Shown: positions 8,302 through 59,539 of the stretch, one piece after another
Numbering within the stretch: the stretch's first letter is position 1
Layout: every line of letters starts with the position of its first letter
NCBI GenBank assembly: GCA_029976025.1
Contig: JARKNX010000208.1
Location: 1 to 64,000, forward strand
From: Aggregatilineales bacterium
GTDB lineage: Bacteria > Chloroflexota > Anaerolineae > Aggregatilineales > Ch27
Direction: 5' to 3'
DNA: 64,000 nt
Notes under the pieces: generated by a model
What the model was told of the DNA's origin: nothing
Databases searched by the model: none
Seen by the model: the letters and a program-made list of their open reading frames with translations, nothing else
Translations under genes and position numbers: made by a program

Positions 8302-9855
8302 TCAGCTGTCCTTAAGCCGCCCGGACCATTCTTTATAGAGGTTGAAAGTTGGCTGGTAATGCGCTTTGTTGCGCCCGGCATAGGTGTCCATGCCGCGATC
8401 GTTATCGCCCACGCCGATATTGAAAGGCGTGGCAGAAAGCCCCCACTGCAGGAAGCCTGCGGCGCCATTGGATATCCAGAATTCCAGCTTACTCCTGGTT
8501 GTCTCCGCTCGCGCCTCACCAGTCGCCCCCCATTCTTCTACGATCAACGGCATATCCAACTGTCTGGCGATCTCCAGATCGGGGAGGGAGCTTTGCTCCT
8601 CGGCGTTATCCTCGTAGAAATGGACTGTGACAAAGTCGATATTAGGCAAGCCATACAGCCGCCTGCCATAAGCCATGCGATCCAGCCCCGGGCGATCGTC
8701 GGGCGCAACATGGCCGGTGTTGACAAGTCCGGTTGTGATCAGATGAGTGGGGTCAATCGAGCGGATCATATCGGAAGCGGCCCGGGCAAACAGCAGGAAG
8801 ACTTCGCTATCGGCTGGCGTTGCCGGCTGCGGCTGGATTGCGTATTCATTACCCAGTTCCCAGGCGAAGATGGCCGGATGATCCTTATACGCCGCGACCA
8901 CTGCCTCCAGATATGGCAGGTAATTCTCGCGATAGCCTTCCTGATGGAAGTACAGCGTCTTGTCCAGATGCCCCAGGGTGCGAATGTGAAAACGTTCGTC
9001 GCCCGGAACCCAGAAACTCCCCAGCGCGTCATTGAGCACAACAATCGCCAGCATGTCGTAGTGTTGCAGCGTATTCAAGGTCTTACCCAGCAAAGGGAGC
9101 GCATCCTGAAGGCTGACGCTGCGGTGACAGGCGTGCATCCGGACGACGTGCATCCCCATGTCGCGCATTGCATTGAGTTGATCGCTCTGATTTCCTTCAC
9201 TGGCGTAGGGCAGCACATCGCGCCGCGCATAAAACGGCAGCTCGCGCAGATTGGCGCCAACAAAGCGGAAGGGCTTGCCGTCCAGCAGGAACTGCCTGCC
9301 ATTCACCCTCACCCGCCCTTTTACCTGCGGCCTGGTCCCGGCATTGTCCGGCACAATCGTGGGAGGTCTGGCGGACAGCAGACGCTTCCCCGATCGGGCA
9401 TTATACTCAGCGATCCACGTGCTTTCCTGATCGGCCAGTTTGCGCCAGACCCATCCATCCAGGCTCAACTGTCTGACTGCGGCGAGAACCTGGACGGATT
9501 TATCTTTGGTCAGTTGTCCAATGGAATTATCCCCGGCGATTTCGGGAGTCTCACGCAGTCTGACCGTGCCCAGAGCGTAGAGCGTCTGAGGTTCGCTGCT
9601 CTCGTCAACCGGCGGGATTGCTGTGTCAAGCAAACGTCTGCCGTCCGCGCTGTTGGCTTCAGCGACCCAGACATCAGAGTCAGCAAGCCGGCGCCAGGTC
9701 CATCCATCAGCAGTTTGTTCGGCTATATCCGCCAGGACAACCAGCGGATCACCAATGACGAATAAATCAACGATATTGCCATCTTCAATGCGCGGCGCGC
9801 GGCGCGCATTGAGGCGCGGTATCCCGACATAAAACACCACTGTCTCCTGCGACAT
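8302..9855 (-). CDS. SH3-like repeats fused to a glycoside hydrolase family 5-like domain
   Basis: Two similar N-terminal units (ADGWTWRRLADSDVWVAE and LDGWVWRKLADQESTWIAE, within about residues 30-165) look like bacterial SH3 folds. A (beta/alpha)8 hydrolase domain follows (FLLDGKPFRFVGANL ... FAWELGNEY ... LIVEEWGATGE). The Glu after Asn in WELGNEY and the Glu in VEEWGATG fit the acid/base and nucleophile of clan GH-A, family GH5 or a mannanase-like relative. The ORF-track start at 9876 is possible, but the ATG at 9855 has a GGGGG about ten bases upstream and is preferred. No signal peptide or anchor is visible, which is odd for a polysaccharide hydrolase. The substrate is unknown. The gaps on either side (about 165-180 bases) show nothing clear. 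Confidence 0.75.
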   Translation of the reverse strand: MSQETVVFYVGIPRLNARRAPRIEDGNIVDLFVIGDPLVVLADIAEQTADGWTWRRLADSDVWVAEANSADGRRLLDTAIPPVDESSEPQTLYALGTVRLRETPEIAGDNSIGQLTKDKSVQVLAAVRQLSLDGWVWRKLADQESTWIAEYNARSGKRLLSARPPTIVPDNAGTRPQVKGRVRVNGRQFLLDGKPFRFVGANLRELPFYARRDVLPYASEGNQSDQLNAMRDMGMHVVRMHACHRSVSLQDALPLLGKTLNTLQHYDMLAIVVLNDALGSFWVPGDERFHIRTLGHLDKTLYFHQEGYRENYLPYLEAVVAAYKDHPAIFAWELGNEYAIQPQPATPADSEVFLLFARAASDMIRSIDPTHLITTGLVNTGHVAPDDRPGLDRMAYGRRLYGLPNIDFVTVHFYEDNAEEQSSLPDLEIARQLDMPLIVEEWGATGEARAETTRSKLEFWISNGAAGFLQWGLSATPFNIGVGDNDRGMDTYAGRNKAHYQPTFNLYKEWSGRLKDS

Positions 9856-48216: not shown

Positions 48217-51200
48217 ATGAACCGTCGCCTAGTTCTGACACTTGTGCTGGTCACCGGCATCCTTCTGCTGGGCCTTGTGCCGGGTGTCTTCGCCGCGCCG
48301 CGCGCGCAGGCGGAGATTGCCCAGGTCCGCCTGGTCCATGCAGTCCCGGATGCTCCTGCCGTGGATGTCCTGATCGACGGAGGGCTGGTCGCCTCCTCGC
48401 TCACCTACCTGGAAGCTACACCTTATATTCTGTTGATGAGTGGCGGCGAGCACACCATCTCGATACAGGCTGGCGGCGTCGATATCGTCCGAACGTCACT
48501 CACCATCAACGGCGGCCAGAATCTGACTGCCCTGATGATGGGCACAGCCGAAGCGATTGAGATCAACACTTTTGAGGATGATCTCAGCGGCCTGGTGCCG
48601 GGGAATACCCGTCTGAGCGCCATCAATGCCCTGTCCGGCGTCGAAGCAGTCGATATCATCCTGCCTGACGGCAGCCCGGTCTTTCAGGACCTGGCGTACG
48701 GCGCCAGTTCCGGCGGGATTGATATCCCGGCCAATACCTATCCGCTGGTAATTGTGTCTGCTGGCGGCTCTGTGGAACAGGCGCTGACACCCGCTGCGAG
48801 CTATGCTCTGCAAGCGGGCATGCTTTACCGGCTGCTGGTCACGGGCGGCGTGCCCACGGCCCTCATGTTAGAAACTCCGGTACAGGCCCCGGCAGACAGC
48901 GTGAACCTGCGCCTGGCACATGCTATCGAGGGCGCTCCTGCCGTCGATGTGTACGCCAACGATATGCTGATTGTGCCCGGTCTGGCCGCCGGAGAAATGA
49001 CGCAGTACATGGCCTTGCCTCTTGGCACCTACGAGATCAGTATGCGCACGGCGGGTGAGCAGAACGTCGCTTCCATCGCCCAGATCGCCTTCGATGTCAG
49101 CAATCCAGAGGTTGCGGGGCAGGCCAGCACCATCGCCGCAGTGGATAAGGGCGATAGCCTGGGTCTCCAGATCTATCAGGATGATTTCAGCATACTCGAC
49201 TCGGGGACAGGCCGGATCAGCCTCCTGAATGCGCTGCCTGGCTCCTCACTGACTGCCGCCCTGAGCGACGGCACCACCCTGACAGCCGGCACACCGTTCG
49301 ACAGCGCAGCGACTTCGGCCCAGGTTCCCGCCGGTGATTACACCCTGACCCTCACGGATGAAGCGAGCGGTAAAGCCATCACCTCTGATGTCAGCCTCAC
49401 AGGCGGCACGCTCACCAGTGTGCTCGTCGCCGGCCCGGCGGAACAGCCGCTGGTCATTACCGGGACAACTGCTCTAAATGTCCAGCCCGGCAGCGTTGTG
49501 GCCGCCGTCGCTGAAGTTATCCCCACAACAACACCTGAGATTCTGGTCACAGAGGAAGCCCCAACTGAAGTGCCCGCTGTTCCGACGGAGACGCCTGTTC
49601 CGGTCGAGATCGCTGCCGCGCCGACCGCTACCCTGGCCCCGACAACGGCGCCTGTCGCGCAGCCCTTGCCTGCTGAAGGGCCAGTCGGCCTGGTCTATAA
49701 CCTCGACCCCGGCGCAAATCTGCAGCTTCGCCAGTATCCGAACTCTGCTGCCCTGTCGATCGGCCGTGTCAGCTCCGGCACAGTTCTGAGTATCCTCGGC
49801 CGCGCTGGCGAGCCGGACTTCCCGAATCTGGTAGACCTGCCGCCCAACGCCGATCTTGATCCGATGGAAACCTGGCTCAGCGTGCTGTACAACACGCCGG
49901 AAGGCGGCACGGTCGAAGCGTGGGCAACCGCCCAGTACGTCCATATCACTGAGGATGGCAAGCCAGTCCGCCTGGCCGATCTGGAACCATTGCGCTCCGA
50001 TATTCCCGGCACGGCATCCGGCTCGACAGTTGCCCAGCCGACAGCCGCTCCCGCCGACGCTGAGTTCTATGCCGTCGTGTTCAATCTCAATCCGGACGCG
50101 CGCCTGAACATCCGCCGCACTCCCGAAACAATAGGCGAGGTCCTGGCCGGCGTCGGCCCTGGCACAATCCTGGAGCCGACCGGCATTCTGGAGGATCTGT
50201 CCTGGACGTTTGTGACCTTCCGTCCGGAAGGCGGCGGCACAATCACCGGCTGGGTTTCCACCGAGTTCCTGCAATTCGTGTTTCGGGGGAAGATGGCCCT
50301 GCCCACGGCGGGGAATATTGACGAGTATTTGCAGCGCAGCGTGCTGCTGTACGCTGACCCGACCCGGCGCGGCGAAATCAGCCCGGAAGCTGCCGCAGCA
50401 GCGGGCGCTACGCCTACACCTGCGGCGCAGTCCGAGTTCTATCTGCTGGTATTCAACCTCGATCCCGGCGCTAACCTGAATATCCGCCGCACCCCCGATA
50501 CGCTGGCCGAAATTCTGGCGGCAGTGCCCTCCGGCACTATCCTCGAGCCAGTTGGCATTCTTGAGGATCTCTCCTGGACATTCGTGCGCTATCTGCCGCC
50601 GCAGGGTGGCGAGATCACCGGCTGGGCCTCGACAGAATTCCTGCAGTTTGCCTATCGCGGGCGGACTTATCGGCCCCTCCCCGAATATATCAACGAATTT
50701 CTGCAGCGCGGGCTGGTGATCTACGTGGACCCAACGCTGCGCGGGGAAGTGAGCGCGGAAGCAGTGCTTGTGACGCCCACTGCCGCCCCTTCTGACGCCG
50801 AATTCTACAGCGTTGTGTTCAATCTGTTTGAAAGCGCGCGTCTGAACGTCCGCCGGACGCCCGATACCCTGGCCGAAATACTGGTCGCTGTGCCGCCGGG
50901 GACCATATTGCTGCCAGTGGGTATCCTGGAGGACCTTTCCTGGACCTTCGTGACCTTCCTGCCTGAGGGCGGCGGCACGATCACCGGCTGGGCCTCGACG
51001 GAATTCCTCCAGTTCGTTTTCCGCGGTCGCGCTTCCTTGCCGACGCCGGAAAATATCGAGGAGTACCTCCAGCGCGGTTTGCTCCTGTACCAGGACCCGA
51101 CCACTCGCGGCGAAGTTAGCGATGATGCCGTCACCGCAGGAGGGTCCTCGGCAGATACTGACGCGTCGCGATATCGCAATCAGTATGTCGGCACTGTAGT

Positions 51201-51429
51201 CTCGGCCCCTGGCGCGAACCTGCACTTGCGCCAGACCCCGGATGCCGCCAGCCGCTCCCTGGCCCTGATACCAAGTGGAGCAATTATACTGATCGAGGGC
51301 CGGACGGCTGACGCCGGCTGGCTGCAAGCCGAATATGACAATATGCCCGGCTGGGTGGCCAGCGCTTACGTTGGCGTTACCCGAAACGGCCAGCGCGTGG
51401 CTATTCAGGATATTCCGGTTGTCCAGTAA
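48217..51429 (+). CDS. Large secreted protein with DUF4397 units and five SH3-like repeats
   Basis: The protein has 1070 residues. A signal peptide (LVLTLVLVTGILLLGLVPGVFA) leads to an N-terminal half of about four DUF4397-like beta units (28-420; VRLVHAVPDAPAVDVLIDGG, VNLRLAHAIEGAPAVDVYAND). A Thr/Pro/Ala linker runs at about 425-488. Five SH3-like units follow, starting near 489, 616, 740, 862 and 988. The middle three are close copies (FLQF.FRG, EYLQR, NxRRTP). DUF4397 proteins are secreted and of unknown function; SH3 repeats often bind peptidoglycan or polymers. No LPXTG, TM anchor or enzyme motif is visible. AAGGGAG precedes the ATG. A related DUF4397 lipoprotein gene follows. Confidence 0.88.
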   Translation: MNRRLVLTLVLVTGILLLGLVPGVFAAPRAQAEIAQVRLVHAVPDAPAVDVLIDGGLVASSLTYLEATPYILLMSGGEHTISIQAGGVDIVRTSLTINGGQNLTALMMGTAEAIEINTFEDDLSGLVPGNTRLSAINALSGVEAVDIILPDGSPVFQDLAYGASSGGIDIPANTYPLVIVSAGGSVEQALTPAASYALQAGMLYRLLVTGGVPTALMLETPVQAPADSVNLRLAHAIEGAPAVDVYANDMLIVPGLAAGEMTQYMALPLGTYEISMRTAGEQNVASIAQIAFDVSNPEVAGQASTIAAVDKGDSLGLQIYQDDFSILDSGTGRISLLNALPGSSLTAALSDGTTLTAGTPFDSAATSAQVPAGDYTLTLTDEASGKAITSDVSLTGGTLTSVLVAGPAEQPLVITGTTALNVQPGSVVAAVAEVIPTTTPEILVTEEAPTEVPAVPTETPVPVEIAAAPTATLAPTTAPVAQPLPAEGPVGLVYNLDPGANLQLRQYPNSAALSIGRVSSGTVLSILGRAGEPDFPNLVDLPPNADLDPMETWLSVLYNTPEGGTVEAWATAQYVHITEDGKPVRLADLEPLRSDIPGTASGSTVAQPTAAPADAEFYAVVFNLNPDARLNIRRTPETIGEVLAGVGPGTILEPTGILEDLSWTFVTFRPEGGGTITGWVSTEFLQFVFRGKMALPTAGNIDEYLQRSVLLYADPTRRGEISPEAAAAAGATPTPAAQSEFYLLVFNLDPGANLNIRRTPDTLAEILAAVPSGTILEPVGILEDLSWTFVRYLPPQGGEITGWASTEFLQFAYRGRTYRPLPEYINEFLQRGLVIYVDPTLRGEVSAEAVLVTPTAAPSDAEFYSVVFNLFESARLNVRRTPDTLAEILVAVPPGTILLPVGILEDLSWTFVTFLPEGGGTITGWASTEFLQFVFRGRASLPTPENIEEYLQRGLLLYQDPTTRGEVSDDAVTAGGSSADTDASRYRNQYVGTVVSAPGANLHLRQTPDAASRSLALIPSGAIILIEGRTADAGWLQAEYDNMPGWVASAYVGVTRNGQRVAIQDIPVVQ
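50062..51165 (+). repeat. Three tandem 366-372 base repeats inside the DUF4397/SH3 gene
   Basis: Units begin near 50062, 50434 and 50800, each at a (D/S)(A/E)EFY-type junction, with periods of 372 and 366 bases (124 and 122 codons). They encode diverged copies of the same SH3-like module. Shared motifs such as ILEDLSWTFV and TGWxSTEFLQF recur in each. The units end in low-complexity linkers of Ala, Thr and Pro. Confidence 0.85.
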
Positions 51430-51451
51430 TCCGCCACAGCCTCAGTCTGTC

Positions 51452-51484
51452 AACGGCCCCGCCCTCAACGGGGCCGTTCTGTTT
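51452..51484 (+). terminator. Intrinsic terminator after the DUF4397/SH3 gene
   Basis: AACGGCCCC and GGGGCCGTT form a perfect nine-base stem with a nine-base loop, followed by CTGTTTGCT. Confidence 0.75.
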
Positions 51485-51508
51485 GCTGTGTATGGGAATA
51501 ACGGCAGA

Positions 51509-51537
51509 TTGGTCAGGCCCGGAGAGCGAATTACAAT
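51509..51537 (+). promoter_or_regulatory. Promoter for the DUF4397 lipoprotein gene
   Basis: TTGGTC (51509-51514), a 17-base spacer and TACAAT (51532-51537). Transcription would start near 51544, giving a leader of about 30 bases. With the terminator just upstream, this gene has its own transcript. Confidence 0.5.
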
Positions 51538-51573
51538 AAAGCCGGATGGCGATCTGGCGAGAGGATAGCATCT

Positions 51574-53658
51574 ATGGCCTGGCGACGAGCTTTCTACCTT
51601 TTTTCCATCCTGTTATTCCTGGCCCTGCCCGCGTGCAGCAGCACACCCGCGCCGACGGCAGCGGTTTTGCCCACTGTCACGCTCGCCCCTACAGCCACGC
51701 CCGCCCCGCAGCCTACCGCCACGATAGGTTCGGTTCCCCAGGCGGCGGCTGAGCCGCAGGTCAGCGGCCAGATACGTGTCGTGCAGGCGGCGCCCGAAAC
51801 AGGTGCTGTCGATGTCTACCTCGAACAGGCTCTGATCGCCGGACGGCTGGGCCCGGGGGCTTTCACTAACCCGGTTGCCGTACCTGTCGGGGTCTACACA
51901 CTTCAGGTTATCCCGGCGGGTGCGCAGATCGATACGCAGGTGCTGGCCGAAACCTCCGTCAACATACTGCCGGAGCAGTCTTTCCTCGCCCTGATCACAG
52001 GTACGGCCGAGACCCTGAACATTTCCGTCTTCCAGGAAGATCTGAGCGCCATCCCCCAGGGACAGTCGCGTCTGGCCTTCCTGCACGGGGTGCCGCGCGG
52101 CCCTCTGTTCTCGCCGCGGGTGGATGCCCAGCCGCTGCCCGACATACTGGACCTGGGTCAGGTTAGCGCGGGCTACCTGTTCGAAAGCCGCCCGCATCGC
52201 CTCGCCTTCTACGCCGGCGATACCCTGCTCGCCAGTATTGACGCCGCCCTCGCCCCGCAGCAGATGTATACCGCCGTCCTGATAGGCCGTGTCGGCGGCG
52301 GCGATTACCGCATACTGCTCTTCAGCACGCCGGTTCAGACGCCCGGTCAGGTACGCTTCATCCATGCTGCCCCCAGCACGGGATATGTCCGCATCGACCT
52401 GGGCGAACAGACGCTGGCAGAAAATCTGCCCTATCGGGATACAGGTGGCTGGCAACCCGTCAAGCCGGGAACCTATGAATTGCGGGTGACCGAAGCAGAT
52501 GCGGAGGAAGCGACGCGACCGCTGGTAGTGACCCGGCTGAACATCGCCCCTGCACAGGCCCTGGAAATCGTGATGCTGGAAGAGCGCGGCATCCCCACTG
52601 TGCGGGCATATGACTATCCTCTGGCGCCCACTCTGCCGCAGACCATCCGCCTGGTGAGCGTCAATGCCGCACCCGACGCGCCAGTTATCTATGCCCAGAT
52701 GTTCTCCGAGCGTCTTGCCAGCATCCCACCCATCCCTTATGGCGCCTATACGCGCCCGCTCGATCTGCCGGCGGGCCAGTACGATGAGCTGATGTGGCTC
52801 ACAGGCGAGGGAAACAATGCCAGGGTTGTGGAGCGCGCGGGCAGCGTGACCCTTGAAGAAGGGCACACCTATACTTATATCGTCACCGGCCAGGACTATC
52901 TGCCCTTCCTGCTGGGCACTGAGACAGGGCTGGATACATCGGTTGCCAGCATCGGCCCGGATACCAATCCCGGCGATGTAGCTGAGGTGCGCGCATTGAA
53001 TGCGCTGGCTGAGCCGCTCGGGCTCCGGGTTCAACTGGGAGACATAACACTGACGGAATTGCTGGAATATGCTGAGGCCAGCGGGTACCAGACAGTCCCT
53101 GCCCAGGATTACACTTTGCGCGTTGGATCGGCGGGCAGCTCGCACAACGCCCCGGATTACCTCATCCAGGATCTGTCCCTGCTGAACACGCGCAAGGCCA
53201 CCATCCTTCTGTATGGGCCAGCAGAAACCATGCAGGCAGCGCTACTCCCGGACTATGAGGATCCGGTCGGCCTCGGTCAGGCCGTGCTGCGCGTCATTCA
53301 CGCCGCTCCCGGGCGGGGTGACCTCACGATATCGCTCAACATTCCCGGCATCATGCCGACGCAGCCGCCGATCGATATTGACGGAACTCCCAGTTACCCC
53401 CCGCCCACGCCCGATCGGTCGCTGGACACCTATAAATCATCTGCCTTCAGGCCGGGAGACTCAACCGGCTTCGTCGGCCTCCCGACTGGCGTTTACGATA
53501 TCCTTGTGCAGCGAACATCCGATTCGCACGTAGTCGCCATTGTGCCGCGCCTCCAACTGGAAAGCCGCACTCTCTACGACCTGATTCTGCTGCCCGACAC
53601 CTCCGGCGAAGGCTTCACCGTGCAACTCCTGAGTCAGAACGTTGAAAGCAGGCCCTGA
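51574..53658 (+). CDS. DUF4397 multi-unit lipoprotein
   Basis: The protein has 694 residues. The lipobox LALPAC sets a lipid anchor at Cys21. A Thr/Pro-rich stretch (TPAPTAAVLPTVTLAPTATPAP) precedes about five or six DUF4397-like units with recurring openings: IRVVQAAPETGAVDVYL, RFIHAAPSTGYVRIDLG, IRLVSVNAAPDAPVIYA, VRALNALAEPLGLRVQLG and LRVIHAAPGRGDLTISLN. No enzymatic motif is seen. It is related to the N-terminal half of the previous gene, so the two probably arose from a shared module. A surface-exposed, beta-rich, ligand-binding or structural role is the most I can infer. Confidence 0.85.
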   Translation: MAWRRAFYLFSILLFLALPACSSTPAPTAAVLPTVTLAPTATPAPQPTATIGSVPQAAAEPQVSGQIRVVQAAPETGAVDVYLEQALIAGRLGPGAFTNPVAVPVGVYTLQVIPAGAQIDTQVLAETSVNILPEQSFLALITGTAETLNISVFQEDLSAIPQGQSRLAFLHGVPRGPLFSPRVDAQPLPDILDLGQVSAGYLFESRPHRLAFYAGDTLLASIDAALAPQQMYTAVLIGRVGGGDYRILLFSTPVQTPGQVRFIHAAPSTGYVRIDLGEQTLAENLPYRDTGGWQPVKPGTYELRVTEADAEEATRPLVVTRLNIAPAQALEIVMLEERGIPTVRAYDYPLAPTLPQTIRLVSVNAAPDAPVIYAQMFSERLASIPPIPYGAYTRPLDLPAGQYDELMWLTGEGNNARVVERAGSVTLEEGHTYTYIVTGQDYLPFLLGTETGLDTSVASIGPDTNPGDVAEVRALNALAEPLGLRVQLGDITLTELLEYAEASGYQTVPAQDYTLRVGSAGSSHNAPDYLIQDLSLLNTRKATILLYGPAETMQAALLPDYEDPVGLGQAVLRVIHAAPGRGDLTISLNIPGIMPTQPPIDIDGTPSYPPPTPDRSLDTYKSSAFRPGDSTGFVGLPTGVYDILVQRTSDSHVVAIVPRLQLESRTLYDLILLPDTSGEGFTVQLLSQNVESRP

Positions 53659-53784: not shown

Positions 53785-53848
53785 CGTGCTGAAATATGAC
53801 GAAGTCGGCGCGGCGGCGCTGGCTGGTGGATGGGCAAAGGCCCCCATC

Positions 53849-54493
53849 ATGCAACAGACAAGACAGTGTATACTGCAAATCCTCAAGGATAACGGCACAG
53901 CCACCGTTGACGAACTGGTGAAGGCGCTCTCCAGCAGCGTTGGCGACATTACCGCCGTCACAGTGCGACATCATCTCGAAATTCTGCGCGGCGATGGGCT
54001 GGTTGCCGCGCCAACAATACGCCGGCGCACCACGCCAGGTCGGCCGCAGCACGTCTACTCGCTGACTGATAAAGCGCTGGAACTCTTCCCCAACAATTAC
54101 CGCAGCCTGGCAGCGCAGTTGTTATTTCAGATCAAGACCCAGCTCCCTGCTCATGACGTGAATGTAATTCTGGAAGGGGTGGCGGACCAGATGGCGAGCA
54201 CGCTCCCTCCGTCCGACGCCCCCCTGCCCGTCCGGCTCAACCAGGTTGTCGAGTATTTATCCCACCTCGGTTATCATGCCCGCTGGGAAGTTTGCGAAGA
54301 AGGCTACATGCTGTTGACTGCTAACTGCCCTTACCACCACCTGGCGCAGAAGCACGACGAGCTTTGCCTGATGGACATGCGCCTGGTATCGAAGCTGCTG
54401 GGCGGGATCGTGCCTCGACGGGTGAGTCACATGGCTGGCGGTGATGAAAGCTGTGCTTACCTGATTCCGGAGAAAATTACCCAGACATCCTGA
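53849..54493 (+). CDS. SufR-like Fe-S responsive transcriptional regulator
   Basis: The ORF-track GTG at 53786 lies upstream of the predicted transcription start. ATG 53849 (MQQTRQCILQILKDNGTATV), with AAAGG upstream, gives 214 residues. The N-terminal winged helix reads TVDELVKALSSSVGDITAVTVRHHLEILRGDGLV with a wing at RRRTTPGRPQHVYSLT. The C-terminal domain carries four cysteines in VCEEG, NCPYHH, ELCLMD and SCAYLI, the pattern of COG2345/SufR regulators that bind an Fe-S cluster. The gene for an IscA-type carrier follows 87 bases downstream with its own promoter, supporting a link to Fe-S homeostasis. Confidence 0.82.
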   Translation: MQQTRQCILQILKDNGTATVDELVKALSSSVGDITAVTVRHHLEILRGDGLVAAPTIRRRTTPGRPQHVYSLTDKALELFPNNYRSLAAQLLFQIKTQLPAHDVNVILEGVADQMASTLPPSDAPLPVRLNQVVEYLSHLGYHARWEVCEEGYMLLTANCPYHHLAQKHDELCLMDMRLVSKLLGGIVPRRVSHMAGGDESCAYLIPEKITQTS

Positions 54494-54580: not shown

Positions 54581-54991
54581 ATGACTGCATCACTGAACGC
54601 ACAGGAAACCACCGAAGCCACCCCGATCCTGAATGTCACCCCTGCTGCCGCGAGCAAGATTAAGGAACTGCTGGAGGCGCGCGGGTTGCAGGATTACTCT
54701 CTGCGCGTTTTTGTGAGCGGCGGTGGGTGTTCGGGCCTTCAATACGGCATGGCCTTCGAAAAGGAAGCCGACGAATCGGACACCCGGGTTGATACACAGG
54801 GTGTAAGTCTGCTGGTAGACTCAATGAGCCTGGAATATCTCCACGGCGCATATATCGACTTCGTCGATAACCTGATGGGTGGCGGATTCCGTATCGACAA
54901 CCCGAACGCAACCTCATCCTGTGGCTGCGGTCACTCGTTCCGCACTGCGGACAGCAGCAGCTCCGGCAGCGGCTGTGGTGGTTGCCACTAG
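54581..54991 (+). CDS. erpA: A-type Fe-S carrier (IscA/ErpA/HesB family)
   Basis: It accepts and delivers Fe-S clusters or iron. The protein has 136 residues. The three conserved cysteines are in SGGGCSGLQYG and TSSCGCGHSF. LLVDSMSLEYLHGAYIDFVDNLMGGGFRIDNPNA is a strong family stretch. Compared with ErpA (about 114 residues) it has an N-terminal extension and a Ser/Gly-rich tail with two extra cysteines (GSGCGGCH) that could add a metal site. ATAAGGAG stands before the ATG. The symbol is a family assignment; IscA and ErpA cannot be separated here. Confidence 0.92.
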   Translation: MTASLNAQETTEATPILNVTPAAASKIKELLEARGLQDYSLRVFVSGGGCSGLQYGMAFEKEADESDTRVDTQGVSLLVDSMSLEYLHGAYIDFVDNLMGGGFRIDNPNATSSCGCGHSFRTADSSSSGSGCGGCH

Positions 54992-55052
54992 CACCTGCCA
55001 ATTGACGCTTTTGCGGAGCCGCAATTCAGGAACATCATGAGTGTCATGGGAG

Positions 55053-55084
55053 GGACCTTGTTCGGCGCAGACTGGACAAGGTCC
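55053..55084. terminator. Inverted repeat between the A-type carrier and radical SAM genes
   Basis: GGACCTTGT and ACAAGGTCC form a perfect nine-base stem with a 14-base loop, extended by one G-U pair. It lies about 60 bases past erpA and about 100 before the radical SAM start. It may be a terminator without a U tract or an RNA structure in a longer leader. Confidence 0.4.
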
Positions 55085-55184
55085 TTCGTTCGAGGGTATG
55101 CGGCCAGGTTCTGAACAGGCGCAGCGCCCTTACAGCCGGGATATGGCCTGGCTACCGTACGCCAGTTGACGAAGGAAACCAACC

Positions 55185-56606
55185 GTGTTGAATATTTTTT
55201 CCAGAAGCAAGCAAACAAGCGATTCCCCGGATGGCCGCCGCCGGCTCTGGATGGATGTGGGCGACCTGGGCGATCTGGTCAACCCCGCCGGCCCGCATGA
55301 GCAGTGGCAGGATCATGGCCTGGGGCTGCTGCGTACCATCATGCATCAGAACGGGTTGATGACCGACGTTGCATCCACACGCGCGGTTACATCCTGGCGC
55401 GATCTGCGCAAGCAGATCAAAGGCTACGATATGATGTTCATGAACATACGCAGTTACACGTTTCCAGTCGCCCGGCGCGCTGCCCAGATATTCAAAGAAA
55501 TAAACCCCACCGGCAAAGTCATCACCGGCGGCATGCACGCTACGGTGGCCCTCGATGAGTTGGAAGCCATACCCGAGATCGATCATATCGTCCAGGGTCC
55601 CGGAGAGTTGATCATCAACGATATCGCCCGCGACCCGGACGCTTTCCCGCGCGTCATACTCGGCACAGGGACGCGGTCGATGGCCGACTGGCCGATGATC
55701 GATCGCACGCTGTGGCCCAAGCCAGCCAGCCGGCATCTTGCCAAGACCTTCCACTGGCCGCTGGAGCCAGAGTGTGGCTGGGGGCCGGCCCCTGTCGCCA
55801 CCCTCCTCACCAGCCGGGTGTGTCCCTGGAAGTGCGTTTTCTGTAACGAAAGCTCCTATATTCAGACCATGGGCCGCCGCCCGGTGGAAATGGTGATCGA
55901 GGAATTGAACTTCCTGGATACTCATTATGGGCCGCTGGGATCGGTGGTTATCCACGACTCGATGTTCTTCCAGAATCCAAGCTGGCTGGAGGAGTGGATC
56001 GAAAAATACCCCCGGCAGGCGCATCAGACCTGGTCTTACTGGGCCGCCGGACGCTCTGACACTGTCCGTCAGTGGCCGGACCTGTTCGAAACGCTGCTCA
56101 AAGAAACTAACTGGGGCACGATTTCTATCGGATTCGAATCGGGGAGCGATCGCATCCTCCGTATGCTCAACAAAGAGTGCACTGAGGAGGACAACTACTT
56201 CGCGATCGACCTGATCAATCGCATCGGCGATGAGCTGGAGGCGCAGGGACGCAAGCCGCCCATCATCTGGGCCAACATCATGCTGGGCATCCCCGGTGAG
56301 ACGCCGGAAGATGCCTTCAAGACAATGCGCATGGTCAAGTCGATGCACCGCGTCATGCCTTCTATCTCATTTTACGCCCCCTACCCCGGCTCGGCGCTCG
56401 GCTACCAGCTCATTGCCGAGGGGAAAAGCAAGATGTCCAAAGAGAACTACCACCGTTACCCTGATGATGAGAAGCTCCAGGGCATCGACTACCAGTTCTA
56501 CCGCGAGTTGCTGGCGGGCAAATACGACGACGAAGTCAATAAGGGCCTCGATCCGCTATCCAGGCGCAAAGCTGGCGATTTCTCTGCCGCTCTGATCAAG
56601 GCTTAA
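55185..56606 (+). CDS. B12-binding domain/radical SAM protein
   Basis: The protein has 473 residues and starts with GTG with GAAGGA eight bases upstream. The N-terminal part (to about 165) has a cobalamin-binding-like fold, with VITGGMHATVALDELEAIPEIDHIVQGPGE resembling BchE-type B12 domains; the base-off DxHxxG motif is not seen. The radical SAM core carries the cluster motif CPWKCVFC (about 213-220), GFESGSDRILRMLNKECTE and MLGIPGETPEDAFKTMRMVK. The family carries out radical methylation, cyclisation or ring rearrangement on very different substrates. Two small genes follow closely. The product is unknown. Confidence 0.85.
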   Translation: MLNIFSRSKQTSDSPDGRRRLWMDVGDLGDLVNPAGPHEQWQDHGLGLLRTIMHQNGLMTDVASTRAVTSWRDLRKQIKGYDMMFMNIRSYTFPVARRAAQIFKEINPTGKVITGGMHATVALDELEAIPEIDHIVQGPGELIINDIARDPDAFPRVILGTGTRSMADWPMIDRTLWPKPASRHLAKTFHWPLEPECGWGPAPVATLLTSRVCPWKCVFCNESSYIQTMGRRPVEMVIEELNFLDTHYGPLGSVVIHDSMFFQNPSWLEEWIEKYPRQAHQTWSYWAAGRSDTVRQWPDLFETLLKETNWGTISIGFESGSDRILRMLNKECTEEDNYFAIDLINRIGDELEAQGRKPPIIWANIMLGIPGETPEDAFKTMRMVKSMHRVMPSISFYAPYPGSALGYQLIAEGKSKMSKENYHRYPDDEKLQGIDYQFYRELLAGKYDDEVNKGLDPLSRRKAGDFSAALIKA

Positions 56607-56627
56607 GTTAACGAAAGGTTAAACAGG

Positions 56628-56834
56628 ATGAGCAGCTTCACGACCCCGCACTACATGTACTTATTCGAGATGACCAACGGCAAAAAGAAGCTGGCTTACG
56701 GGGCATCGCCGGAGGACGCTCTGGATATCCTGTCGATGCGCCTGACCGAGGAGGAGATGGCGCTCATCATCCGGGATCGCTACCAGCGTATCCCCCAGCG
56801 GGAGATGATGAAGCATCTCGACAATCTGGGTTAG
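56628..56834 (+). CDS. Small 68-residue protein encoded behind the radical SAM gene, unknown
   Basis: The gene lies 21 bases after the radical SAM gene, with AAAGG/CAGG before the ATG, so it is probably co-transcribed. The protein starts MSSFTTPHYMYLFEMTNGKKKLAYG and continues with a helical stretch (SPEDALDILSMRLTEEEMALIIRDRYQRIPQREMMKHLDNL). There is no cysteine, no leader/core layout, no signal peptide and no membrane helix. I do not recognise a family. A small partner or substrate-presenting protein for the radical SAM enzyme is possible from context alone. Confidence 0.65.
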   Translation: MSSFTTPHYMYLFEMTNGKKKLAYGASPEDALDILSMRLTEEEMALIIRDRYQRIPQREMMKHLDNLG

Positions 56835-56896
56835 CGCGGCGGAGGCCCACAGGGGAGTCAAGGCGGCTCCCGGCCCTGCCGCCGTCAGGTGATTTT

Positions 56897-57154
56897 ATGG
56901 CTCTCTCCCGCAGTGAGAAACGGCTGTTGCGGGCGCTCGCCCGCGGCAGCCTGCTTAAGGCGCACCGGGACATGGATGGCGCCAAGACCTTCCTGCTGCA
57001 CCCGCTCACCGGCCCTGCTGAAGTCGTGCAGAAGAAGGCAGTCGATGCATTACTCCGACAGGGGCTGATTAGCAGCAATCAGAAGTTCCCGGCGGCAACA
57101 TTCTTGCTCACAGAAAAAGGGCGGCTGATGGCTGCCGCCCTCGAGCAGCCCTGA
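56897..57154 (+). CDS. Small 85-residue winged-helix-like protein
   Basis: It begins MALSRSEKRLLRALARGSLLKAHRDMDG, passes through a helical stretch (AEVVQKKAVDALLRQGLISSNQ) and ends in FLLTEKGRLMAAALEQP. Helix-turn-helix proteins of the PadR/MarR style often show an LTEKG(R/K) wing, so a small DNA- or RNA-binding protein is likely, but I cannot name a family. AGGTGATTTT precedes the ATG. It is third in line after the radical SAM gene (62-base gap) and convergent with the SH3 protein gene ten bases away. Confidence 0.65.
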   Translation: MALSRSEKRLLRALARGSLLKAHRDMDGAKTFLLHPLTGPAEVVQKKAVDALLRQGLISSNQKFPAATFLLTEKGRLMAAALEQP

Positions 57155-57164
57155 TTCCAGTCGC

Positions 57165-57932
57165 CTACCCCACCCGGCGGGCCAGCCCGATCAACAACCC
57201 CAGGATTCCCAAGGCTCCCAGCACTGCAATTGGCACAATCGGGGGGAGACCGCCGACTTCAATCGTCGGGAGACTCGCGACGGGCGCGATCGATGTAGCT
57301 CGCACAGCGGAATCCGGCGGCGAGGTGAAGGTAGGCAGCGGACCGGGTGTATTGCTCGGCGTCAGCGTTTCGTCATTGACCGCGACAGAGAAGAGCGCCA
57401 CGATGGTGGCCGTTTCAAGCGCCCCCGGGGTCTGGGCCAGCGCCTCCACCGTCCGGGTAGCGGCGGCGGCATTCACATCAAGCGTTGGCTCGCTGGAGAT
57501 ATTCAATATCGGGATATTCTCCACGTCGCCAGTCAGAGAGACAACCTGTTCGAATACCCAGGCAGTTCCGGTGGGCGAGTCGGGATACTGTATCTTGAGC
57601 CAGAGCGTCCCCGCCGCCCGCCCCATGACAGGATAAACATCCCCCGGGATGATCTGGCCCAGCAATTCGCCAGTCAGGTCCGGCGCAGCCCGGACATTGG
57701 TGGGGCCTTCCAGCGCCTCAGCGAGCGCCGGGCCGACCGGTGTGGGCGTTCGTGTCGGCGTTGAAGTCACCTGTACAGCGGCTGTCGGGCTGATCGAAGG
57801 GAGCACAACCGGCGCTGGCGTCGGGCTGACCTGTAATCCCGGTGCGGCCAGTGCAGCCGGCGCCAGCAGCACCGCCGCCGCTAAAAAAGCCGCCCCGGCC
57901 AGGGCGGCGCGTATTCTCAAGGATGGCGTCAT
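57165..57932 (-). CDS. Secreted SH3-domain protein with C-terminal membrane anchor
   Basis: ATG 57932, with GGGAGA seven bases upstream, gives 255 residues; the ORF-track GTG start at 57953 is less likely. A signal peptide (AALAGAAFLAAAVLLAPAALA) is followed by a Thr/Pro linker, one SH3-like domain (TNVRAAPDLTGELLGQIIPGDVYPVMGRA ... GTAWVFEQVV), a second Thr/Pro region and a C-terminal hydrophobic helix with basic end (PIAVLGALGILGLLIGLARRVG). This is the layout of a cell-wall-binding surface protein. It lies 14 bases downstream of the LysM-peptidase gene, so the two probably act together. Confidence 0.82.
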   Translation of the reverse strand: MTPSLRIRAALAGAAFLAAAVLLAPAALAAPGLQVSPTPAPVVLPSISPTAAVQVTSTPTRTPTPVGPALAEALEGPTNVRAAPDLTGELLGQIIPGDVYPVMGRAAGTLWLKIQYPDSPTGTAWVFEQVVSLTGDVENIPILNISSEPTLDVNAAAATRTVEALAQTPGALETATIVALFSVAVNDETLTPSNTPGPLPTFTSPPDSAVRATSIAPVASLPTIEVGGLPPIVPIAVLGALGILGLLIGLARRVG

Positions 57933-57946
57933 CCGAATATCTCCCG

Positions 57947-59539
57947 CTACCACTCAACCTCGTTGATCGGCGTGTCTCGGCCCTGTTCGGCCTGCCGGTA
58001 GTCGCCCCCCTTGCTCATCGTACCCTGATACTCCTGCCCTTCCCACCCGCGCACCGTCCATCCTCCCAGCACAAACGGCAGGTCTGACAGGCCCGGGACA
58101 CAGGCGTGGCACTGCGCCGGAATCCACTCGCCGTTGTATCGGCGAGCGATATGCAGATGCGTCGCATTCGACACTCCGCCTTCGCAAGAGGGGTGCCCCA
58201 GCGGATCGCCGGCCCGGACGACTGTCCCCGCCGGGACGCGCCCCTCGCTGGCAAGATGCAGGTAGACCACCGTCCAGCCGGTCGTCTCATCCCCGTCGCC
58301 GTCCAGGTCAAGCACCACAAAGCCGCGCTCAGAACGGGCAATGACTCCATCAGCAACCGCGGTGGCCCACTGCGGGGCTACAAAACAGCCGGCAGTATCC
58401 TTATCCCCCGGCGGCGCAAAATCGATAGCCGCCCAGGCGCTGCCGGAAGCGTACGCGCCATGCGGCCCGCCGGTGTAATACCACAGCTCCCCCTGCTCCC
58501 AGGGCAAGCGCATAGCCGGCTGGGTCAGGCCCGGAGGCAGTAGCGGATCGACAGTGAGCGCGAACGGGTCGCCGAAGAGGCCAGCGTACAACAGGTAGAA
58601 TCCCGCCGGATCGACCTGTTCCAGCCAGGCATCATAACTGCGGTTCAGGCTTAAAACATACTGTACGGCGGCCGTGGCCGCATTGATGCCCGATGCATAA
58701 GCCACGCGGATGCCATTGCTAAAGGTGAACCACCGCTGGCCGCGCAGCCGGTAGCCATAATACCCTTCGTTGAGGCGATTCGCCGCCCAGGAGAGCTGCT
58801 CATACAGCCCTTCGTAGCCAGGCTGGATATATCCCATCGGATAGAGCAGGGTAGCTTCCGAGGGTGTCGGATTGAACAACCAGCCGGAACTATTCTCCAG
58901 CAGCGCCAGCAGAAGGCGCGGGTTGACGCTGAAATCGTCGGCCACCCGCCGCACAATTTCCGCCGCGTCAATGGTCACCCCATCAACCATTTCGGTGAAG
59001 GAGCTGATGTAGCCCGGCAGCATCCTGACGTAACCGGCAATATCAAAACTCGCCGTGGCTGGCCCTCGTACCAGCTCGCTGTCGGGGAGTATCTTGAAAG
59101 CCGGGCCAAAGACAGTCCTGGACGATGGCAGCGCCAGCACCTGGCCTACCGGAATAAGCGAGGGGTCCCCCAGCGCATTCAAAGCCGTGAGCTGCTCCAC
59201 CGTGGTCCCAAACTGGCTGGCGATGGCTGAGAGGGTATCGCCGGCCTGGACTACGTATGACTCCGGCAACGGTTCCGGCATCTCAAAGCTGAGCGGCGGA
59301 TCCGGCGTGGGGACAATCGGAGCAGCTCCAGCCCCGGGCAATGACTGAGCCAGAGCGACCGGGAATCCGACCGTCTCTTCCCCGGCGGTTCGGGTCTCAA
59401 TGCCGAGGGTGCTCACTGCTTCAGGCGGCGTGGCGGTGACAATGATCACCGGGCCAGAAGGCTGCCGCACACAGGCCAGGCCAGCCAGCAGCAGCATCGA
59501 CAACACCGCAAGCAGGCGAAACAGGCGTGATACTGACAT
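57947..59539 (-). CDS. LysM-M23 (LasA-type) peptidase lipoprotein
   Basis: The protein has 530 residues. The lipobox LAGLAC anchors it by lipid. A LysM domain (YVVQAGDTLSAIASQFGTTVEQLTALNAL) binds glycans. A long middle domain (about 150-390) has no motif I can name. The C-terminal M23 domain shows zinc ligands in GPHGAY ... AIDF (His and Asp 13 residues apart, as in LasA) and HLHIARR. It contains Cys pairs (AGCFV, PSCEGG, CHACVPG). Such enzymes cut glycine or peptide bridges in cell walls. The first residue of the next gene upstream overlaps its end region, and the SH3 gene follows 14 bases downstream. Confidence 0.87.
   Translation of the reverse strand: MSVSRLFRLLAVLSMLLLAGLACVRQPSGPVIIVTATPPEAVSTLGIETRTAGEETVGFPVALAQSLPGAGAAPIVPTPDPPLSFEMPEPLPESYVVQAGDTLSAIASQFGTTVEQLTALNALGDPSLIPVGQVLALPSSRTVFGPAFKILPDSELVRGPATASFDIAGYVRMLPGYISSFTEMVDGVTIDAAEIVRRVADDFSVNPRLLLALLENSSGWLFNPTPSEATLLYPMGYIQPGYEGLYEQLSWAANRLNEGYYGYRLRGQRWFTFSNGIRVAYASGINAATAAVQYVLSLNRSYDAWLEQVDPAGFYLLYAGLFGDPFALTVDPLLPPGLTQPAMRLPWEQGELWYYTGGPHGAYASGSAWAAIDFAPPGDKDTAGCFVAPQWATAVADGVIARSERGFVVLDLDGDGDETTGWTVVYLHLASEGRVPAGTVVRAGDPLGHPSCEGGVSNATHLHIARRYNGEWIPAQCHACVPGLSDLPFVLGGWTVRGWEGQEYQGTMSKGGDYRQAEQGRDTPINEVEW

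Follow-up and report, generated by a model that had tools for sequence, protein, structure and literature searches.

A B12-type radical SAM enzyme and its conserved 68-residue companion form an apparently undescribed two-gene system in Chloroflexota

Analysis of a 64,000-nucleotide stretch of contig JARKNX010000208.1 from an Aggregatilineales bacterium (hereafter the window), together with related genomes, reveals a two-gene system that is genuine, well conserved and apparently undescribed; it is built on a known kind of enzyme and accompanied by an optional third gene. It comprises a class B (B12-type) radical SAM enzyme and a protein of 68 residues that is its near-universal, single-copy and coevolving companion. 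All three plus-strand reading frames proposed for this region by the initial annotation (473, 68 and 85 residues) were found (Table 1), and both the lack of cysteine in the 68-residue protein and its 21-nt distance from the enzyme gene were confirmed. The searches found neither a paper on this pair nor a database name for the enzyme family.

Table 1. Features of the locus, in positions of the window
Feature	Position	Strand	Remarks
SufR-like/ArsR-type regulator gene	53786..54493	+	SufR TIGR02702 E 2.7e-15, below cut-off
ErpA-family A-type Fe-S carrier gene	54581..54991	+	NCBIfam ErpA PRK13623, 135 bits vs cut-off 117
Inverted repeat/strong RNA hairpin between erpA and the enzyme gene	55050..55087	+	
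B12-binding-type (class B) radical SAM enzyme gene	55185..56606	+	473 aa, GTG start, CxxxCxxC at 213-220
68-aa cysteine-free partner gene	56628..56834	+	starts 21 nt after enzyme stop
85-aa winged-helix-like accessory gene	56897..57154	+	ends just before convergent gene
Convergent gene downstream of the 85-aa reading frame	57165-57953		

The co-occurrence of the two genes was analyzed in 298 genomes of one Chloroflexota class, inferred to be Anaerolineae, with enzyme orthologues defined by E ≤ 1e-60. Such orthologues are present in 117 genomes (about 40%) from 20 family-level lineages, nearly always as a single copy. The full-length ones are 66–85% identical across the class, so the reading frames of the window are not due to chance. 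The 68-residue family occurs in 108 of the 298 genomes, with one copy each, and all 108 are enzyme carriers (Fisher p = 3e-71, a figure uncorrected for phylogeny and inflated by phylogenetic non-independence); loci with the pair include members of Caldilineaceae, Thermoflexales, Roseilinea, Ardenticatenaceae and Aggregatilineales. The initial annotation had proposed an undescribed system of a radical SAM enzyme and small proteins, for which at least ten co-occurrences would count as support and small proteins found mostly without the enzyme would count against it. The 108 genomes with both genes far exceed that number, both small families lie almost entirely within enzyme carriers (108/108 and 57/58), and the proposal is strongly supported by this co-occurrence and by the spread of carriers over 20 lineages. 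Among the nine genomes in which only the enzyme was recovered, five hold fragments only, in three the enzyme gene lies close to the edge of its contig, and the last (G187) contains a full enzyme gene followed by a transposase-like gene, the partner being absent from the fetched stretch and from the rest of the genome.

In the 81 distinct pairs whose enzyme gene comes first, the two genes overlap by 4 nt in 15, are separated by 1–50 nt in 44 and by 51–150 nt in 13, and lie farther apart in 9. They are located on separate contigs in three genomes (G121, G296 and G291) and, as neither gene is at a contig end in G121 and G296, their co-retention is more than a by-product of linkage. Inserted genes split the pair in four further genomes (G164, G224, G267 and G229). 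In G164 and G224 these span 3.6–5.7 kb between the 68-residue gene and the usual enzyme, and a different B12-type radical SAM gene is found about 9 nt downstream of the 68-residue gene in both (L123 and L124) as well as at locus L078; in G267 and G229 (L125 and L126) the insertion consists of a ParA-like ATPase gene and a gene of 200 codons.

The phylum-wide sample of 301 genomes revealed no carrier outside the class; its sole extra-class match at E ≤ 1e-60 is a remote relative (G407, 211 bits) located beside nucleotide-sugar genes. A 68-residue gene at 66% identity is present on a contig titled Planctomycetia bacterium (L106), which may reflect horizontal transfer or a mislabelled MAG. In a plasmid collection only remote relatives of the enzyme, largely of the HpnJ type, and no credible relative of the 68-residue protein were detected. 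The partial correlation between enzyme and partner, given ErpA, is 0.32 (0/2000 permutations), and that between partner and ErpA, given the enzyme, is 0.01. A distance-correlation test supports the link between enzyme and partner (0.64), yet adds little beyond shared ancestry, which dominates the test since the value for enzyme and ErpA is higher (0.90). Between the window and a close relative (L002), dN/dS values are about 0.057 (68-residue gene), 0.058 (enzyme) and 0.23 (85-residue gene), with dS near saturation. In a sister lineage, the partner and the N-terminal motif of the enzyme are altered together. The co-inheritance of the enzyme with so strictly conserved a small protein makes a joint function almost certain.

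The assignment of the enzyme to the class B radical SAM proteins rests on its match to Pfam Radical_SAM PF04055 (44.9 bits, cut-off 29.5, E 1.9e-11), on the invariance of cysteines 213, 217 and 220 in an alignment of 58 rows, remote relatives included, and on its predicted fold. As to an N-terminal cobalamin-binding Rossmann domain, the match to the Pfam B12-binding entry PF02310 reaches 27.3 bits, under the curated cut-off of 32.1, and the predicted fold resembles TokK, OxsB, CysS and MgmA; we infer that the enzyme binds cobalamin. No NCBIfam equivalog comes near its cut-off. Structural comparison of the AlphaFold model (pLDDT 85.5, pTM 0.86) with the PDB gives MgmA as the best match, followed by TokK, OxsB, MiaB, AprD4 and CysS. 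MgmA (PDB 9ccb), the glutamine C-methyltransferase of methyl-coenzyme M reductase, superimposes with TM scores of 0.59/0.66 and is also the only sequence match in the PDB (E 9e-5, residues 207–409, 18% identity); like the present enzyme it is a compact single-chain B12-type radical SAM protein. The enzyme is nevertheless no member of the MgmA family (TIGR04014; 31.6 bits against a cut-off of 360), and MgmA differs in being a methanogen protein with a known target, for which the accessible part of its description mentions no partner of 68 residues (PMC11796369). The radical SAM diol dehydratase AprD4 (PDB 6fd2) is similar in size and fold (TM 0.61/0.63); it matches by fold only, at 13% identity, and its substrate is the aminoglycoside paromamine. 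The enzyme chain of the MtaB–YvfG complex model (PDB 9a6d), which according to the record title associates a radical SAM-fold enzyme with a second protein, matches the predicted fold as well. Neither the enzyme nor the 68-residue protein matches the PADLOC models of phage defence.

The 68-residue protein is highly constrained. Its length is exactly 68 residues in all 87 distinct full copies from a first set of loci, each of which starts with (M/V)SSF..PH and finishes with LG; three further genomes encode a version with two extra residues in the hairpin. One copy (L113, genome G280, positions 8780-8983) is interrupted at codon 11 by an in-frame TAG, the rest of the frame being conserved, and may be a pseudogene or the result of a sequencing error. 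Conservation spans the whole length of the protein, which bears out the claim of the initial annotation that a leader/core layout is absent. AlphaFold predicts a β-β-α-α-β-α arrangement (a hairpin followed by a pair of helices, one strand and a last helix; mean pLDDT 82.7) in which residues 9–66 form a confidently predicted compact fold, whereas residues 1–4 fall below a pLDDT of 50 and the mean over the first ten residues is 59. Despite these low values, M1 to F4, P7 and H8 are invariant. The predicted fold has no match in the PDB (best E 1.4), the sequence has no significant match there, and no family profile scores above its cut-off, in agreement with the earlier view that this protein lies outside known families.

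Small proteins such as the MbtH-like proteins and PqqD, of about 70–90 residues, are dedicated to one enzyme and encoded beside it. They show no sequence match to the 68-residue protein, and the likeness is one of role only. The reading that we favour is a two-protein enzyme in which the 68-residue protein is a required, dedicated subunit, a proposal to which we assign a probability of roughly one half; it is preferred because of the whole-length conservation, the fixed length, the single copy and the compact predicted fold of this protein. The enzyme would combine SAM, a [4Fe-4S] cluster and probably methylcobalamin to act on an unactivated carbon by radical chemistry. Class B radical SAM enzymes commonly catalyse C-methylation, which would be the most likely reaction here too, though this is only a guess, against which it can be noted that AprD4, among the closest folds, is a diol dehydratase. 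The hairpin-helix body of the small protein would dock on the enzyme, and its invariant, predicted-disordered tail MSSF[S/T]NPH could reach the open active-site cleft and serve there as a lid or guide the substrate; the Fe-S cluster would probably come from the ErpA-type carrier whose gene lies upstream, and the winged-helix protein may serve as an optional regulator or accessory. A more specific version of the subunit proposal, put forward tentatively and with less than even odds, is an obligately heteromeric B12-type radical SAM enzyme whose active site is completed by the N-terminal tail of a small protein with a fold new to the PDB, for a reaction peculiar to Anaerolineae that mostly respire and with ErpA as dedicated cluster donor.

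The main rival, somewhat doubtful but well ahead of the others, holds that the 68-residue protein is the substrate of the enzyme: it would be C-methylated or otherwise modified, probably at the disordered N-terminus or at the C-terminal LG, and would then act elsewhere as a modified protein, unlike a classic RiPP, whose leader is removable. An N-terminus that is invariant and yet predicted to be disordered would fit a subunit and a substrate alike, and the fixed length with its invariant terminal dipeptide can be read in favour of a substrate. MgmA is described as a protein C-methyltransferase that has a wide cleft and modifies an extended protein segment (PMC11796369), so the closest solved relative makes both roles plausible. 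Furthermore, residues 27–51 are weakly similar to models of the Franean1_4349/Os1348 NHLP-clan RiPP precursors (PF14407 and NF038399), with a short stretch P-E-x-A-L...L-T-x-E-E in common. These matches remain far under the cut-off, with at best 18 bits against 48 for PF14407 and a best E value of 0.017 for NF038399, and profile comparison (hhalign) of the 68-residue family with genuine PF14407 proteins from the phylum gives a probability of 7.6%. Genuine PF14407-type members also differ in context, a CxxxCxxC radical SAM-type gene adjoining them in only 1 of 30 stretches. A leader with a variable core is contradicted by the conservation of the entire protein, the constant length and the LG end, and residues 9–66 are confidently predicted to be compact. 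The earlier preference for a partner over a peptide substrate is thereby upheld as far as precursor layout, precursor family and compact predicted fold are concerned, while a role as a modified protein stays its main rival.

The genomic context bears on a further alternative, in which the 68-residue protein would be a non-catalytic chaperone or protection factor for an oxygen-labile cluster, aiding loading by ErpA or keeping the [4Fe-4S] cluster in respiring cells. The set often reaches further upstream, taking in genes for an ErpA-type Fe-S carrier and for a SufR-like regulator, which are found near the enzyme in 32 and 27 of 81 neighbourhoods, respectively. Strong matches to haem-copper oxidase (E < 1e-80) are present in 38 of 40 carriers and 13 of 40 non-carriers, and ErpA in 38 of 40 and 9 of 40, both contrasts being confounded by phylogeny. 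They suggest that the lineages with the system are mostly respiring ones, in which an Fe-S enzyme exposed to oxygen and supplied by ErpA would be plausible. As support for a chaperone, on the other hand, such a lifestyle correlation is weakened by the same confounding, a protein devoid of cysteine offers no usual ligation of a cluster, and the correlation of the partner with ErpA vanishes (the 0.01 given above) once the enzyme is accounted for; we consider this role unlikely. Other frequent neighbours of the pair are MoaA, a SPASM radical SAM protein and DUF2203, each at 14 loci. The SPASM gene is placed outside the core, since it occurs in 25 of 40 carriers and 16 of 40 non-carriers and is absent from the genome of the window. 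About a dozen loci (L080, L113, L115, L070 and L047 among them) contain, near the pair, one or two extra B12-type radical SAM genes together with a SPASM radical SAM gene, possibly a separate undescribed pathway.

Least probable by far is that the enzyme acts on lipids or pigments as a hopanoid-type (HpnJ) or tetrapyrrole-type (BchE) protein with unrelated small genes beside it: both models are among its best-scoring NCBIfam matches and this branch has the two-domain layout in common with it, but the scores amount to roughly 10% of the cut-offs (64.2 bits against 577.6 for HpnJ, TIGR03471, and 56 against 481.4 for BchE), a single one of 80 genomes (40 carriers and 40 non-carriers) has hopene cyclase (TIGR01507), which is missing from nearly all enzyme carriers and from the genome of the window, and the co-occurrence of the 68-residue gene contradicts unrelated neighbours. 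An HpnJ identity is thus largely refuted.

The 85-residue protein is an accessory. Its family occurs in 58 of the 298 genomes, and its inclusion in the system by the initial annotation holds insofar as all but one of these are enzyme carriers, but it is present in only about half of the carriers. About 43 of the genes are located within 500 nt of the 68-residue gene; about 11 are on a different contig from it, in some cases at contig breaks. The protein gives weak matches scattered over winged-helix families; a relation to the YjhX toxin (PF09857) was rejected (19.4 bits against 27, over residues 1–29 only, with 2 of 19 members matching), and the PADLOC search yielded one weak match (E 0.014). 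In-frame TGA codons occur within the matches to this family in G025, G116 and G259.

The presence of mostly single-copy orthologues, 66–85% identical, in some 40% of the genomes sampled suggests a basic role of the enzyme rather than one in niche secondary metabolism, in a class of largely uncultured bacteria. In-vitro study of radical SAM enzymes hinges on small obligate partners. If the 68-residue protein is a subunit, its co-expression may be needed for enzyme activity; if it is a substrate, it represents a new protein modification. Both outcomes are testable with two genes.

The inverted repeat upstream of the enzyme gene had been proposed as a boundary of the set. It is real, with arms at 55050-55061 and 55076-55087 and a predicted RNA fold of -32.9 kcal/mol (z -3.7); it lacks a T tract and was not called as a terminator, and the Rfam search yielded no conserved RNA element. 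Close relatives lack this repeat, L002 and L094 having other repeats and L043 having none, which makes it a local feature rather than a border of the system. Farther upstream, positions 48217-53658 of the window are occupied by tandem large reading frames of 1070 and 694 residues, the latter with six DUF4397 stretches.
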